64,000 nucleotides of DNA from Pseudomonadota bacterium (GTDB lineage Bacteria > Pseudomonadota > Alphaproteobacteria > Rhodobacterales > Rhodobacteraceae), in the NCBI GenBank assembly GCA_021813365.1, contig JAKALB010000002.1:1-64000 (forward strand). Reading direction: 5' to 3'. The number at the start of each line of letters is the position of its first letter. The stretch's first letter is position 1. A program made the position numbers and the translations under genes. The notes under the pieces are model-generated. The model searched no databases. It was not told the DNA's origin and saw only the letters and a list, made by a program, of their open reading frames with translations. Of the stretch, positions 1 through 56,700 are shown piece by piece.

Positions 1-13
1 GCGGGCGGGCTGC

Positions 14-68
14 GGGAGGGCTGTCTGCCCTCCCGGACCCTCCCGAGGATATTTGGGGCAAGATGAAG
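14..68 (-). repeat. Dispersed hairpin-plus-tail element, copy A
   Basis: A GC hairpin (GGGAGGGC, 5-nt loop, GCCCTCCC) is followed by GGACCCTCCCGAGGATATTT and a GGCAAGATGAA tail. The same pattern recurs at five other places in the window; the strand given is the one on which the element reads TTTCATCTTG first. Unlike four of the other copies it does not follow a gene that is read in its own direction. It sits 9 bp before the start of the hydrolase gene on the plus strand. Confidence 0.75.
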
Positions 69-13058: not shown

Positions 13059-13110
13059 CCGGGGGCTTTCCGCCCCCGGACCCCCGAGGATATTTCGGGC
13101 AAGATGAAAG
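13059..13110 (-). repeat. Dispersed hairpin-plus-tail element, copy B
   Basis: The hairpin CCGGGGGC / GCCCCCGG (13059-13066 and 13072-13079) is followed by ACCCCCGAGGATATTTCGGG and CAAGATGAAAG. Read on the minus strand, it begins 2 bp after the stop codon of the PhnD-like gene, so it forms that gene's 3' end and may terminate transcription. Confidence 0.85.
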
Positions 13111-13112
13111 GG

Positions 13113-13862
13113 TCAGGGCGACGGCGGCGTGGGAATGGCCAGATAGGCGGCGGCCGGGATGCGGACCAGGCCCTTCAGGTGCAGCAGGGCCCGGTCGGCG
13201 GGCGCCAGGGTGGCCATGGCTTCGGTCACGGCGTCGTAGATTGCCTCGGCGCGGGCGTCCGGAGCGGAGATCAGGGGAAGCCCGGGCGTGGGATCGGTCA
13301 GGGCCACCTCGCGCAGGGCGCCGGCCAGGGCGGGATCATGCTCGCCGATCATCGCCCAGGTGACGGCATCCAGCGCCGCCAGATCGGCCTGGCCGCTGGC
13401 CACCGCCCTGGCCGAGGCGACATGGCCGCCGGTGCACGGACCGGGGGGGAAGGTCAACCCCAGCCTGGCCGCATGGTTCTGCGGGGCCGCCCAGCCGGAC
13501 TGGCTCAGCCCGTCGTTGTAGGCGATCGGTGTGCCATCGAAATCTGCCAGGTCGCGCGGGTCATCGGCGCGGGTGACCAGGACGCTGCGGTAATGGCCCG
13601 GCGGGCAACCCGTGACGCCATAATCCGGCGTGCCGATCAGGGTCACGCGACCATGCAGACGCGCCCGATAGGGAAAGCCGCAGGTCTGGCTCAGCACCAG
13701 ATCAGGCGACAGCCAGCCCGGCATATAGGCCATCTCGCCCCGTGTCAGGGTATCGGGCGCGGCAATGTCGCGGGCGCGCAGGCCGTCCCGGATCAGCGCC
13801 CACAGGCGGTCGTTGGCGGGTTGCACCTCTGGCCGATCATACATGCCCAGGGCGGCGATCAT
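13113..13862 (-). CDS. PhnD-like substrate-binding-fold protein without signal peptide
   Basis: A 249-residue protein with the periplasmic binding fold of phosphate/phosphonate ABC-transporter binding proteins. Recognisable stretches are RGEMAYMPGWLSPDLVLSQT, TPDYGVTGCPPGHYRSVLV and the hinge segment ADFDGTPIAYNDGLSQSG. No signal peptide or lipobox is visible at the start MIAALGMYDRP, and no permease or ATPase gene is nearby, so it may be cytoplasmic and not part of a transporter. Its ATG overlaps the stop of the TerB gene by an ATGA junction, showing translational coupling. The ligand is unknown. Confidence 0.75.
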   Translation of the reverse strand: MIAALGMYDRPEVQPANDRLWALIRDGLRARDIAAPDTLTRGEMAYMPGWLSPDLVLSQTCGFPYRARLHGRVTLIGTPDYGVTGCPPGHYRSVLVTRADDPRDLADFDGTPIAYNDGLSQSGWAAPQNHAARLGLTFPPGPCTGGHVASARAVASGQADLAALDAVTWAMIGEHDPALAGALREVALTDPTPGLPLISAPDARAEAIYDAVTEAMATLAPADRALLHLKGLVRIPAAAYLAIPTPPSP

Positions 13863-27315: not shown

Positions 27316-27370
27316 CCGGGGGGTTTCACACCCCCCGGACCCCCCGTGGGATATTTGTGAACAGATGAAG
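27316..27370 (-). repeat. Dispersed hairpin-plus-tail element, copy C
   Basis: The hairpin CCGGGGGGT / ACCCCCCGG is followed by ACCCCCCGTGGGATATTTGT and ACAGATGAAGG. Read on the minus strand it starts 5 bp after the sdaA stop codon. A G-rich low-complexity run (27245-27310) lies beyond it. Confidence 0.82.
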
Positions 27371-27375
27371 GGGCT

Positions 27376-28755
27376 CTAGCAGTTTGGCACGTTGACCGCG
27401 AGGCCGCCCAGCGAGGTTTCCTTGTATTTCTCGTGCATGTCGCGTCCGGTCTGGCGCATGGTCTCGATGCAGACATCGAGCGAGACGAGGTGCTGGCCGT
27501 CGCCACGCAGTGCCAGGCTGGCGGCGGAGACCGCCTTGATGGCGCCCAGGCCGTTGCGCTCGATGCAGGGCACCTGGACCAGGCCCTTCACCGGGTCGCA
27601 GGTCATGCCCAAGTGATGTTCCAGCGCGATTTCGGCGGCGTTTTCCACCTGTTCCGGCGTGCCCCCCAGCACGGCCGCCAGACCTGCGGCGGCCATGGCA
27701 GCGGCAGAGCCGACCTCGGCCTGGCAGCCGCATTCCGCGCCCGAGATGCTGGCGTTGTGCTTGCACAGGCCGCCGACGGCGGCGGCGGTGAGCAGGAAAT
27801 CGGCGATTCGGGTCCGCGAGGCGCCGGGGACATGGTCGAGGTAGTAGCGCAGCACGGCGGGCAGCACGCCGGCGGCCCCGTTCGTGGGGGCGGTGACGAC
27901 CTGGCCGCCGGCGGCATTTTCCTCGTTCACCGCCATGGCATAGAGGCTCATCCAGTCGTTGATCGTGTGCGGCGGGGTCATGTTGAGCCCGCGTTCGGCC
28001 AGCAGCGCATCGTGGATGCCCTTGGCGCGGCGACGGACCTTCAGCCCGCCGGGCAGGATGCCCTCGGCGTTCATGCCGCGGTCGATGCAGGCGTTCATCA
28101 CCTCCCACAGCCGGTCGATGCCGCGGTCGATTTCGGCTCTCGAGCGGAATGTCAGTTCGTTGGCCAGCTTCATCTGGGCGATGGTCAGGCCGGATTTCCT
28201 GGCCATGGCCAGCATCTCGGCCGCGGTTTCGAAGGGCCAGGGCACCTCGGCCCGCGTCCTGGACCTGGCGCCGCCGGCAGCCTGGAGTTCGGTCTCGGTC
28301 ACCACGAAGCCGCCGCCGATGGAGTAGTAGGTTTCCTGCAGGATCACGTCGCCCTGGGCGTCGGTGGCCTTGAGGATCATGCCATTGGCATGGCCGGGCA
28401 GGTTCGGGCCGTAGTCGAAGGTCAGATCGCGTGCCGGATCGAAGGCCAGTTCGGGCAGGCCGGGGGGCTGGATGCGGTGTGTGGACCTGATGCTGGCCAG
28501 CGCCGCCTCGGCCCTTGCCGCGTCATAGGTGGCGGGGTCGAAGCCCGCGAGCCCCAGGATCGTGGCCCGGTCGGTGGCATGGCCCACGCCGGTGAAGGCC
28601 AGCGAGCCGTGCAGCGAGGCCTTCACGCCCCTGAAGTGGAACGGCGAGGCGCGCATCAGGTCCAGGAAGCGGCTGGCGGCGACCATCGGCCCCATCGTGT
28701 GCGAGGAGGACGGGCCGATGCCCACCTTGAACATGTCGAAGACAGAGAGGAACAT
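27376..28755 (-). CDS. sdaA: L-serine ammonia-lyase
   Basis: A 459-residue iron-sulfur L-serine dehydratase producing pyruvate and ammonia. The beta domain is at the N terminus ([19 protein letters not shown]) and the catalytic alpha domain at the C terminus, with cysteines in [18 protein letters not shown] and [17 protein letters not shown] as likely [4Fe-4S] ligands. Both domains are fused in one chain, as in E. coli SdaA. Its ATG overlaps the stop of the upstream glutathione transferase gene by one base. A longer open frame continues upstream but only into that gene. Confidence 0.95.
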
Positions 28756-31315: not shown

Positions 31316-32101
31316 ATGCCTGCTGACCTGTCACCCATCGACAAGGCCAAGTTCGTCGCCGCCAGACGCGCGGTGGAATTCGTGCAGCCGGGGATGAAGC
31401 TGGGGCTTGGCACCGGCTCGACCGCCGCCTGGATGGTGCGCTGCCTGGGCGAGCGCATAAGGGAAGAGGGGCTGAAGGTGGTGGGGGTTCCGACCTCGAC
31501 CCGCACCGCCGAACTGGCGCGGCAGGTCGGCGTGCCCATCACCTCGCTGGACGATGCCAAGTGGCTGGACCTGACGATCGACGGCGCCGACGAGTTCGAC
31601 CCTGACCTGGCGCTGATCAAGGGTGGCGGCGCGGCGCTGTTGCAGGAAAAGATCGTGGCGACGGCATCCGATCGGATGATCGTGATCGCCGATGCCGCCA
31701 AGGAGGTGGCGGCGCTGGGCGGCTTCCCGCTGCCGGTGGAAATCATCCCCTTCGGCTGGCAGACCACCAAGGCGCTGATCGAGGAGCTTCTGGTCTCGAT
31801 GGACGTGCTGAACCGCGACGTCACGCTGCGGATGAACGGCGACCGGCCGCTGGTCACGGACGAGGCCAATTACATCGTCGATCTGCATCTGCAGCGCATC
31901 GGCAACCCGCGGCAACTGTCGCTGGTCTTGAACCAGATCCCGGGCGTGGTGGAAAACGGCCTGTTCATCGACATCTGCGACATCGTGGTGATCGGCCACG
32001 CCGATGGCCGTGTCACGGTGCGCGACATCAACGCCGGAACCGAGAGCGACGACCAGGTGACCTTTGCCCCGGAAGACAACATCTTCGCCAACCTGGATTG
32101 A
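31316..32101 (+). CDS. rpiA: Ribose-5-phosphate isomerase A
   Basis: A 261-residue enzyme interconverting ribose 5-phosphate and ribulose 5-phosphate in the pentose phosphate pathway. Signature motifs are GLGTGSTAAWMV, then TIDGADEFDPDLALIKGGGA with the catalytic Asp, and ALLQEKIVA. The ATG at 31316 has GGGGAGA 7 bp upstream; an in-frame start 54 bp earlier lies in non-conserved sequence. It precedes gor on the same strand with the dispersed element between them. Confidence 0.96.
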   Translation: MPADLSPIDKAKFVAARRAVEFVQPGMKLGLGTGSTAAWMVRCLGERIREEGLKVVGVPTSTRTAELARQVGVPITSLDDAKWLDLTIDGADEFDPDLALIKGGGAALLQEKIVATASDRMIVIADAAKEVAALGGFPLPVEIIPFGWQTTKALIEELLVSMDVLNRDVTLRMNGDRPLVTDEANYIVDLHLQRIGNPRQLSLVLNQIPGVVENGLFIDICDIVVIGHADGRVTVRDINAGTESDDQVTFAPEDNIFANLD

Positions 32102-32155: not shown

Positions 32156-32202
32156 TTTCATCTTGCCGGAAATATCCCGGGGGTCCGGGGGCTGGCCCCC
32201 GG
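32156..32202 (+). repeat. Dispersed hairpin-plus-tail element, copy D
   Basis: TTTCATCTTGCCGGAAATATCC is followed by CGGGGGTCC and a hairpin CCGGGGGC-TG-GCCCCCGG. It lies 54 bp after the rpiA stop in the same direction as rpiA. Confidence 0.85.
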
Positions 32203-32226
32203 CCCGACATTCGGCCCGACATTCGG
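32203..32226. repeat. Perfect 12-bp tandem duplication
   Basis: CCCGACATTCGG occurs twice in direct contact, between copy D of the dispersed element and the gor start region. Confidence 0.9.
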
Positions 32227-44240: not shown

Positions 44241-45151
44241 TGAAGATTGCCCTGGTCGGCATCGGCAAGATCGCCCTGGATCAGCATGTGCCCGCCATCG
44301 CCGCCTCGCCCGATTGGGAGCTGGCGGCGACCGTGTCGCGCAAGGGCCGGGTGGACGGCATCGAATCGCATGCGGACTTCGCCAGTTTTCTGGCCGCGCG
44401 CCCCGATGTGGGCGTGGTCAGCCTGACCATGCCGCCCGCGCCGCGCTTTGCCTTTGCCGAGGCGGCGCTGCGGGCCGGCCGCCATGTGATGCTGGAAAAG
44501 CCACCCGGCGCGACCCTGGCCGAAGTGCATGAACTGGCCGCGCTGGCGGCAGCGCGGGGCCTGACGCTCTTCGCCACCTGGCACAGCCGGATGGCCCTGG
44601 CCGTGGCCCCGGCCAGAGCCTGGCTCAGGGGCCGGACGATCACCCGCGCCCATGTCACCTGGCGCGAGGATGTGCGGCGCTGGCATCCCGGGCAGGACTG
44701 GGTGTTCGAACCCGGCGGCATGGGCGTCTTCGACCCGGGCATCAACGCCCTGTCGATCCTCACCGAAATCCTGCCCGCCCCGGTGCACCTGACCGGCGCG
44801 ACCCTGACCTACCCTGAGAACTGCCACACCCCGATCGCGGCCGAACTCACCTTCAGCGGCGGCATCACCGCGGATTTCGACTGGCGCCAGCAGGGCCCGC
44901 AGACCTGGGATATCGACATCCACACCGATGCGGGCCACCTGGCCCTGCGGATGGGCGGCAACCGGCTGTTGATCGACGGCGTCGAAAGTGCGGGCGAGAA
45001 TTCGATCATGGGCGAATATCCCGCGCTTTATGCCCGCATGGCGCAACTGGTGAAAACCGGCACCTCCGACGTCGATCTGGCGCCGCTGACCCATGTCGCC
45101 GATGCGATGACCCTGGGGCGCCGCGTGATCGTGCCGCCCTTCCACCTCTAG
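44240..45151 (+). CDS. Gfo/Idh/MocA-family L-arabinose/D-galactose 1-dehydrogenase
   Basis: A 303-residue NAD(P)-dependent dehydrogenase oxidising the C1 of an aldose to the lactone. The Rossmann motif is GIGKIALDQHVPAI at residues 7-20; the conserved EKPPGATLAE carries the catalytic Lys of Gfo/Idh/MocA enzymes. The region WHPGQDWVFEPGGMGVFDPG resembles D-galactose 1-dehydrogenase and L-arabinose 1-dehydrogenase. Translationally coupled to the dehydratase. No lactonase gene is found nearby, so the lactone may open spontaneously or with an enzyme encoded elsewhere. Confidence 0.88.
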   Translation: MKIALVGIGKIALDQHVPAIAASPDWELAATVSRKGRVDGIESHADFASFLAARPDVGVVSLTMPPAPRFAFAEAALRAGRHVMLEKPPGATLAEVHELAALAAARGLTLFATWHSRMALAVAPARAWLRGRTITRAHVTWREDVRRWHPGQDWVFEPGGMGVFDPGINALSILTEILPAPVHLTGATLTYPENCHTPIAAELTFSGGITADFDWRQQGPQTWDIDIHTDAGHLALRMGGNRLLIDGVESAGENSIMGEYPALYARMAQLVKTGTSDVDLAPLTHVADAMTLGRRVIVPPFHL

Positions 45152-45154
45152 ACC

Positions 45155-45206
45155 TTTCATCTTGCCTCAAATATCCCACGGGGGTCCGGGGGTGTGAAAC
45201 CCCCGG
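45155..45206 (+). repeat. Dispersed hairpin-plus-tail element, copy E
   Basis: TTTCATCTTGCCTCAAATATCC, then ACGGGGGTCC and a hairpin CCGGGGGT-GTGAA-ACCCCCGG. It starts 3 bp after the dehydrogenase stop codon and in the same direction. It lies between this gene and the semialdehyde dehydrogenase gene of the same pathway, so if it terminates transcription the last gene would need its own promoter. Confidence 0.88.
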
Positions 45207-55996: not shown

Positions 55997-56080
55997 CGCC
56001 GCGGGCCGCAAGAGCGGCGGAGCGGCTGCGCCGCAAGATCGACTGTCGCCTCTGCGCGTGCCGCGCAACCGGCTCCGCGG

Positions 56081-56113
56081 CCTCCGGCGGGGGTATTTGC
56101 CGCAAGGTGAAAG
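56081..56113 (-). repeat. Dispersed element, weaker copy F
   Basis: CCTCCGGCGGGGGTATTTGCCG followed by CAAGGTGAAAG matches the tail and ATATTT part of the element (GTATTT here), but without the long C-run hairpin. It lies upstream of the plus-strand DUF1697 gene. Confidence 0.55.
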
Positions 56114-56154
56114 ATGGGGTTGACCGGAACGGGCGGGCAGGTTCCCCTTGGCGG

Positions 56155-56700
56155 ATGAGTGAACCTGCCGCCCCCGATCCGCGCCGCGTCCTTCTGCTGA
56201 GGGGGGTGAATGTGGGCGGGGTGAGGCTGCCCATGGCGGAGTTTCGCGCGATGCTGGGCGGGTTGGGGTTGCAGGGGGTGCAGAGCTACATCCAGTCGGG
56301 CAATGCGGTGTTCCGGGCCACCGGCGATCCGGGGCCGGCGATCGCGGCCGGGCTGGCGGAACGCTTCGGGCTGAACCTGGGGCTCTTTCTCTATGACCTG
56401 CCGCGCTATCGCGCGATCCTGGCGGCCAATCCCCGTGCCGAGGCGGGGCGGGCGGACGGTGCCAGGGTGTATCTGTACTTTCTGGCCAGGCCGGTCGCCG
56501 TGGATCTGGCGCCGGTCCTGGCCCATGCACGGCACGGCGAGGCGCTGAGCGTGACGCCCGAGGCGATCTATTTCCACGCGCCGATGGGCATGGGCCGGTC
56601 GGTGCTGGCCGAGAAGCTGGCTGGCGCCCTGAAGACCGGGTTCACCGCACGCAATCAGCGCAGCGCCGAGGCGATTCTGGCCCTGGCAGAGGCCCTGTGA
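56155..56700 (+). CDS. DUF1697 protein
   Basis: A 181-residue protein of the DUF1697 family. Signatures are LLRGVNVGGVRLPMAEFRAM near the N terminus, VQSYIQSGNAVF, and the C-terminal TARNQRSAEAIL. Function is unknown. The ATG at 56155 is chosen because the 16 in-frame residues upstream are not conserved. Its stop overlaps the next start by one base. Confidence 0.88.
   Translation: MSEPAAPDPRRVLLLRGVNVGGVRLPMAEFRAMLGGLGLQGVQSYIQSGNAVFRATGDPGPAIAAGLAERFGLNLGLFLYDLPRYRAILAANPRAEAGRADGARVYLYFLARPVAVDLAPVLAHARHGEALSVTPEAIYFHAPMGMGRSVLAEKLAGALKTGFTARNQRSAEAILALAEAL

Follow-up and report, generated by a model that had tools for sequence, protein, structure and literature searches.

A dispersed intergenic repeat of Rhodobacterales with lineage-specific tags and a putative triplex-type tail

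Results

Six copies in the window

The window, that is, the whole stretch of 64,000 nucleotides analysed here, holds six copies of an element of about 50 bases in which a 22-nt tag is followed by a tail, most often a G/C hairpin (Table 1). All six had been located in an earlier note on this DNA, and a scan for the core with up to three mismatches found these and none besides, which makes the set complete at that threshold. The decamer TTTCATCTTG occurs seven times with up to one mismatch against 1.3 expected, a number that none of 100 shuffles reached. An Rfam scan of the window gave no match above the gathering score. Genes were called by us with a codon-usage model (coding density 87%), since plasmid annotation was missing or incomplete as a source of gene context; plasmid matches to the element were found in Paracoccus and others. 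For copies 2 to 5 our gene calls place the TTTC end 3' of a stop codon and in the sense of that gene, as the earlier note had read them; of the distances it gave (2, 5, 54 and 3 bp) only the first needed correction, to 3 bp. The absence of a T tract was likewise confirmed, and the hairpin said to be common to all copies is present in those with long tails, copy 6 having in place of the long hairpin a type C tail that follows numerous other tags, both here and in relatives.

Table 1. The repeat element in the window: tags and tails of the six copies
Feature	Position	Strand	Sequence and context
Copy 1 tag	47..68	-	CTTCATCTTGCCCCAAATATCC
Copy 1 tail	13..46	-	TC-GGGAGGG-TCC-GGGAGGG-C-AGACA-GCCCTCCCG; triplex-type hairpin; TC pairable with loop GA
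Copy 2 tag	13088..13109	-	TTTCATCTTGCCCGAAATATCC; 3 bp past stop of minus gene 13113-13862
Copy 2 hairpin tail	13059..13087	-	
Copy 3 tag	27349..27370	-	CTTCATCTGTTCACAAATATCC; 5 bp past stop of minus gene 27376-28755
Copy 3 tail	27316..27348	-	CAC-GGGGGG-TCC-GGGGGG-TGTGAAA-CCCCCCGG; CAC complements loop GTG
Copy 4 tag (starting observation)	32156..32177	+	TTTCATCTTGCCGGAAATATCC; 54 bp past stop at 32101
Copy 4 tail	32178..32202	+	C-GGGGG-TCC-GGGGG-CTGG-CCCCCGG
Copy 5 tag	45155..45176	+	TTTCATCTTGCCTCAAATATCC; 3 bp past stop at 45151
Copy 5 tail	45177..45206	+	CAC-GGGGG-TCC-GGGGG-TGTGAAA-CCCCCGG
Copy 6 tag	56091..56112	-	TTTCACCTTGCGGCAAATACCC; antisense, flanked by two plus-strand genes
Copy 6 tail	56080..56090	-	CCGCCGGAGGC; short type C, without long hairpin

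Copy 1 is oriented away from the following gene. Adjoining copy 4, at 32200-32225, is a short direct repeat (CCCGACATTCGG CCCGACATTCGG) inside the stretch that is missing from relatives. In the sister species G154, the gap orthologous to 55997-56205 of the window (L171, G154:C19:17200-17900) has an element tail within which lie further inverted repeats, long ones, around CCACTTGTTTCTCGAACCAGTGG and CCATTGGTTTTTTGAACCAATGG.

Genome-wide copies and lineage-specific tags

The 22-nt core TTTCATCTTGNNNNAAATATCC matches 260 times in the 3.36-Mb assembly, against none for a reversed-pattern control. A pattern free of spelling detects the element in 120 of the 150 Rhodobacterales genomes sampled, which amounts to 61 of 74 genera, control matches being single-figure in all. 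The other 30 genomes have no match, and the element is therefore dispensable. The element is present, in differing spellings, throughout the 16 genomes of the genus, and in the rest of the class, sampled as one genome per family, matches stay at the control level. On this sampling the repeat is specific to Rhodobacterales.

The tag consists of TTC, a variable block of 7-8 nt and AAATATCC, with a few free bases after the block. This frame is invariant, and the block is nearly constant inside one genome and differs by lineage, even among species of one genus. The usual block is ATCTTGCC in the genome of the window (52 of 84 sampled copies), ATCTTTTC in the sister species G164 and G154 (19/31 and 22/32 copies), ATCTGTTC/ATTTGTTC in G151, TTCTGGCC in G026, from another genus, and TTCTTGCC/T in G067. 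Copy 3 carries a minority spelling of its own genome, TTCATCTGTTC, found at window 27349-27370 and at L037:13529, L047:11739 and L031:8024; the same spelling is the main one of the sister species G151. Unlike the dispersed singles and pairs, the tag TTTCANNNTGGCNCAAATACTC of G164 is repeated directly every 51-56 bp in tandem arrays at L145:18733-18919 and L147:14846-14970, where the final unit ends in AAATATCC plus the short tail CCGCCGGAGGC.

Anatomy of the tail

Three types of tail recur. Type A reads prefix-R1-TCC/TCT-R2-loop-Y, as in CAC-GGGGG-TCC-GGGGG-TGTGAAA-CCCCC-GG; type B has a small hairpin in place of the linker (CGGGGGG-AGGCGAAGCC-GGGGGG-CAGAG-CCCCCC); type C is the short tail of copy 6. 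Certain copies have other hairpins, or a tag with little or no hairpin. A further tail type, seen in G026 (L057:4415, 13898 and 15845), consists of a short hairpin with a GGCA loop and, after it, AACCGC; the stems of these hairpins covary (TCGCGC/GCGCGA, TCGCCC/GGGCGA, GCGCCC/GGGCGC). Many tags of G067 (L062-L070) have little or no hairpin and a loose CGCAACC motif instead.

Arm statistics were drawn from 38 distinct tails picked by linker and loop, arm length being set by best pairing. Between R2 and Y, 217 of 220 positions are complementary (500 re-dealings: mean 197, maximum 209), and the two arms change together, as in GGGAGGG/CCCTCCC and GGGGAGG/CCTCCCC. The earlier note's observation that the arms vary yet remain complementary is thereby borne out, and both selection on hairpin pairing and family-wide recurrence, which it had supposed, are supported. 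R1 is the mirror image of R2 at 14 of 15 informative non-G positions (re-dealings: mean 5.3, maximum 11); these shuffles somewhat overstate independence because many tails share ancestry, and the safer figure is the count of asymmetric arm sets, eight of which are mirrored, none directly repeated and one neither. A reading of the two G-runs as a direct repeat fits only 4 of the 15 positions and was discarded. Mirrored arms occur with a TCC linker (GGAGGGG TCC GGGGAGG; AGGGGG TCC GGGGGA) and with a TCT linker (GGGAGG TCT GGAGGG; GGGGAGG TCT GGAGGGG; GAGGGGG TCT GGGGGAG).

Opposite an A of R2, R1 has A or T, and purine-motif triple helices allow both A.A-T and T.A-T. As R1 would lie antiparallel to R2 in such a fold, the bases before R1 would reach the loop. 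The prefix does complement the loop: CAC goes with TGTGAAA, TGC with TGCAAAA, and TC with CAGACAG, CGAAGCG or CGGAAAG, giving the pairs CAC/GTG, TGC/GCA and TC/GA; three tails with the prefix CGC against TGTGAAA need a G-T wobble. The mirror rule and the prefix-loop complementarity fit a single fold, a capped purine-motif triple helix R1.R2-Y, whose formation we infer. The tail thus has the architecture of a putative intrastrand DNA triplex, like the enterobacterial boxC/PIT repeats.

Position and orientation relative to genes

Positions were counted in sampled stretches of this genome, of relatives and of named loci, covering a part of the 260 copies; the stretches were chosen for containing copies and hence form no random sample of the genome. 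In this count 24 matches lie inside called genes, partly by chance or through gene-calling errors. The 132 occupied intergenic gaps comprise 46 between convergent genes (16% expected, p=6e-8), 8 between divergent genes (28% expected, p=2e-10) and 78 between codirectional ones; the first class is enriched and the second depleted. The earlier note had supposed a non-random placement relative to stop codons. This held: of 69 single copies between codirectional genes, 39 are no more than 20 nt from the stop where 26 were expected (permutation p 0.0005), and in the wider count 62 of 103 copies are as close, against 47 by random placement in the same gap (p=0.0005). The mean distance to the stop is not significantly below random placement in the same gap, so that the effect is a surplus of very close copies.

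Orientation gives a different picture from the one drawn in the earlier note, which had proposed a terminator or processing site acting in the direction of the upstream gene. Single copies between codirectional genes are sense in 35 cases and antisense in 32, with ratios of 14:8 for singles of this genome and 4:11 for two other genera. Sense copies have their tag next to the stop (overlapping it or at most 5 nt away in 17 of 38), and antisense copies turn the end of the tail towards it. By these counts the element sits in gene 3' flanks regardless of strand, and its random orientation speaks against a directional mRNA 3'-end signal. The run of sense copies in the window is small-sample luck, to which copy 6 is already an exception.

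Orthologous sites

Sister-species gaps with both flanking genes conserved side by side hold the element in 17 of 37 comparisons, which amount to about ten sites seen in several species and are not independent. All 17 filled sites keep the orientation found here and all 17 have a different variable block. The block changes in place to a spelling usual for the resident species; TTC, AAATATCC and the tail are kept, between flanking genes that are 70-88% identical. At the site of copy 2 the tag begins TTTCATCTTTTCAC in G164 and ATTCATACTGGCTC in G154, and that of copy 5 is filled in three sister species with three other spellings. At L047:5468 the rare tail TGC-GGGGG-TCC-GGGGG-TGCAAAA-CCCCCGG is common to four species, whose tags are TTTCATCTTGCC, TTTCATCTGTTC, TTTCACATTGGC and TTTCAATTTGGC. 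Shared descent of the site combined with replacement of the word is the simplest reading. Gains between species also occur, judging from two loci: the gap of copy 4 measures 149 nt here against -10 to 35 nt in eight relatives, all of which lack the copy, and the gap of a pair at L044 measures 336 nt here against 64 and 30 nt in both relatives compared, where the pair is absent.

Inverted pairs

Many copies of this genome form divergent (inverted) pairs with spacers usually of 17-19 bp, and 14 of 17 pairs join an A tail to a B tail. An inverted A+B unit of about 129 bp recurs at many loci. In a comparison of twelve sampled units, with two loci entered twice, identity is mostly 85-96% across some 127-173 bp, and the sequences outside have no such likeness. 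Two pair units with a 14-bp spacer have 229 bp in common at 93%. Spacers inside the pairs, taken over all pairs, are weakly more similar than shuffles, and clearly so only within subfamilies. The pair units bear the signature of a copied, mobile-type unit. A profile search for Y1_Tnp (PF01797) found no match in this genome and none over the cut-off in 16 congeneric genomes, with positive controls; the sole congener with any match had a weak one below the cut-off. A RAYT/Y1 transposase as the mobiliser was rejected for these 16 genomes on that ground.

Discussion

Known repeats of similar design

The element has several features of the boxC/PIT/TM_ECO repeats of Enterobacteria, which form a triplex in vitro, show neither promoter or terminator activity nor strand bias, and occur as A+B inverted pairs (Holder et al. 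2015, PMC4666352). Both are intergenic without strand bias and have three arms, a 3-nt linker between purine arms and a G/C-rich purine motif, and the combination by which boxC/PIT is recognised, two mirror purine arms with a short linker and a complementary pyrimidine arm, is present here by sequence. Close inverted pairs join type A to type B (always in TM_ECO, 14 of 17 here), and copy number varies widely among related genomes. The arm order is nevertheless reversed, R-N3-R-loop-Y here and Y-loop-R-N3-R in TM_ECO; the attached 22-nt tag with its lineage dialects is proper to the Rhodobacterales element, which lies behind genes, whereas TM_ECO is more often found upstream of ORFs (PMC4666352). 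The TM_ECO consensus (CCCTCNCCC...) is absent from the Rhodobacterales element.

With REP, BIME and REPIN sequences and their RAYT (PMC3116915, PMC3686654) it shares an extragenic hairpin with an adjoining conserved tag, the occurrence both singly and in inverted pairs, and lineage-specific types. Two characteristics of REP/REPIN were found here, a short extragenic palindrome in many copies and inverted pairs replicated as a unit; the tag, however, has 22 nt in place of the GTAG/CGTC tetranucleotide, and no Y1_Tnp exceeds the cut-off in the 16 congeneric genomes. CGTC palindromic families have been described in all alphaproteobacterial orders (Di Nocera et al. 2013, PMC3733652), in a text that does not name Rhodobacter, Paracoccus or Roseobacter. 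They too combine palindrome and tag, but the tag here reads TTC..AAATATCC, for which reason membership in the GTAG/CGTC class was rejected, and their stems, loops and CCA tail are different (PMC3733652). What sets the Rhodobacterales element apart from both boxC/PIT and REP/REPIN is its long dialect tag, the reversed order of its arms, its place 3' of genes and, in the genomes searched, the missing RAYT.

Intrinsic (Rho-independent) terminators have a GC hairpin at gene ends in common with the element, which differs from them in having neither T tract nor orientation preference. Neisseriaceae DNA uptake sequences have dialects, with invariant and lineage-specific positions in a short signal, and form inverted pairs at gene ends. 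The element resembles them in these positions and pairs; it has far fewer copies and a structured tail, and a link to uptake would be only hypothetical.

No Rhodobacterales repeat of such a kind was found in the open-access literature, an earlier description in a subscription journal being possible. Open-access full texts with TTTCATCTTG or GGATATTT together with Rhodobacter gave unrelated matches only. Papers that deal with RNA 3' ends, RNase E, PNPase or UTR-derived sRNAs in R. sphaeroides do not show the motif in the passages searched, and the PNPase study reports no consensus upstream of its 3' ends.

Interpretation

We regard the element, with somewhat more confidence than doubt, as a REP/boxC-like DNA repeat that is dispersed between genes, forms structure, belongs to Rhodobacterales and has evolving dialects; its function is putative. 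By analogy to RAYT and REP, an enzyme would read, or once have read, the tag and the folded hairpin in single-stranded DNA and so spread the repeat. Given its position, the hairpin could act on either strand as a boundary that stops 3'-exonucleases or RNA polymerase, and the repeat would be tolerated, and probably useful, behind genes owing to this orientation-free boundary. The lineage-specific block would be the mark of a co-evolving recogniser. The tag word probably serves such a co-evolving factor, be it a mobiliser or a cellular DNA-binding factor, as its recognition site, and the retention of sites whose block is respelled in relatives suggests that a partner reads the block. Simple transposition would not switch the block while conserving the tail, which, on the sites compared, counts against this explanation.

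A role at the DNA level is favoured over one at the RNA level because orientation is random and because purine-motif triple helices are not known to accept RNA third strands. It is improbable that the element is a directional mRNA 3'-end signal, read in the direction of the gene upstream, with a tag recognised or cleaved in the transcript and a hairpin that makes up the 3' end. Such a signal would account for the enrichment at gene 3' ends, the GC hairpin and the sense copies often 0-5 nt from a stop, but not for equal numbers of sense and antisense copies (35 to 32) or the missing T tract, and the mirror rule of the purine arms has no known meaning in RNA. Only a little less unlikely is inert debris of a past mobile repeat, its position reflecting selection against insertion near promoters or in genes and its dialects being subfamilies expanded at different times. 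The genomes with zero copies and the copied pair units agree with this, and purifying selection alone could explain the depletion upstream of genes. Compensatory change in three arms and the complementarity of loop and prefix speak against it, as do stop proximity beyond random placement in the same gap and the fact that species keep the same site and orientation along with the tag ends and the tail. To call the element something other than an inert repeat, as the earlier note did, was nonetheless too strong, since it is a dispersed repeat copied as inverted pairs and the copy at 32156 is missing in eight of eight relatives.

A more serious competitor, still clearly less probable than the REP/boxC-type repeat, makes the tag the site of a sequence-specific DNA-binding factor serving, for example, chromosome organisation, replication or, as in Neisseriaceae, recognition in DNA uptake, the dialects tracking its specificity and mobility being secondary. 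The block is uniform per genome and different among species of one genus, it changes in place to a spelling usual in the resident species while TTC, AAATATCC and tail stay, certain copies are tags with little or no hairpin, and orientation is random, all as such a site would have it. Yet the candidate factor is only putative, copies number no more than tens to a few hundred, the element is lacking in 30 of 150 genomes, and species differ by the gain or loss of some sites. Tentatively, and with about the same reserve, one may go further and see in the tag a genome-wide signal with species dialects, in which a fast-evolving trans-acting recogniser, protein or RNA, would force dozens to hundreds of orthologous sites at gene ends to change their block in concert and in place, the capped DNA triplex being the structural half.

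In Rhodobacterales, a major group both in the sea and as models, a fixed frame with a lineage-specific word and a triple-helix-type tail in most genera amounts to a natural experiment. As the word switches in place between species, its putative reader could be found by comparing genomes with different words. The tail alignments allow the DNA triplex fold to be tested by covariation, for which the near-identical TM_ECO copies are poorly suited. If the reading as a dialect signal is true, the element would represent a new recognition system in Rhodobacterales and more than a repeat.
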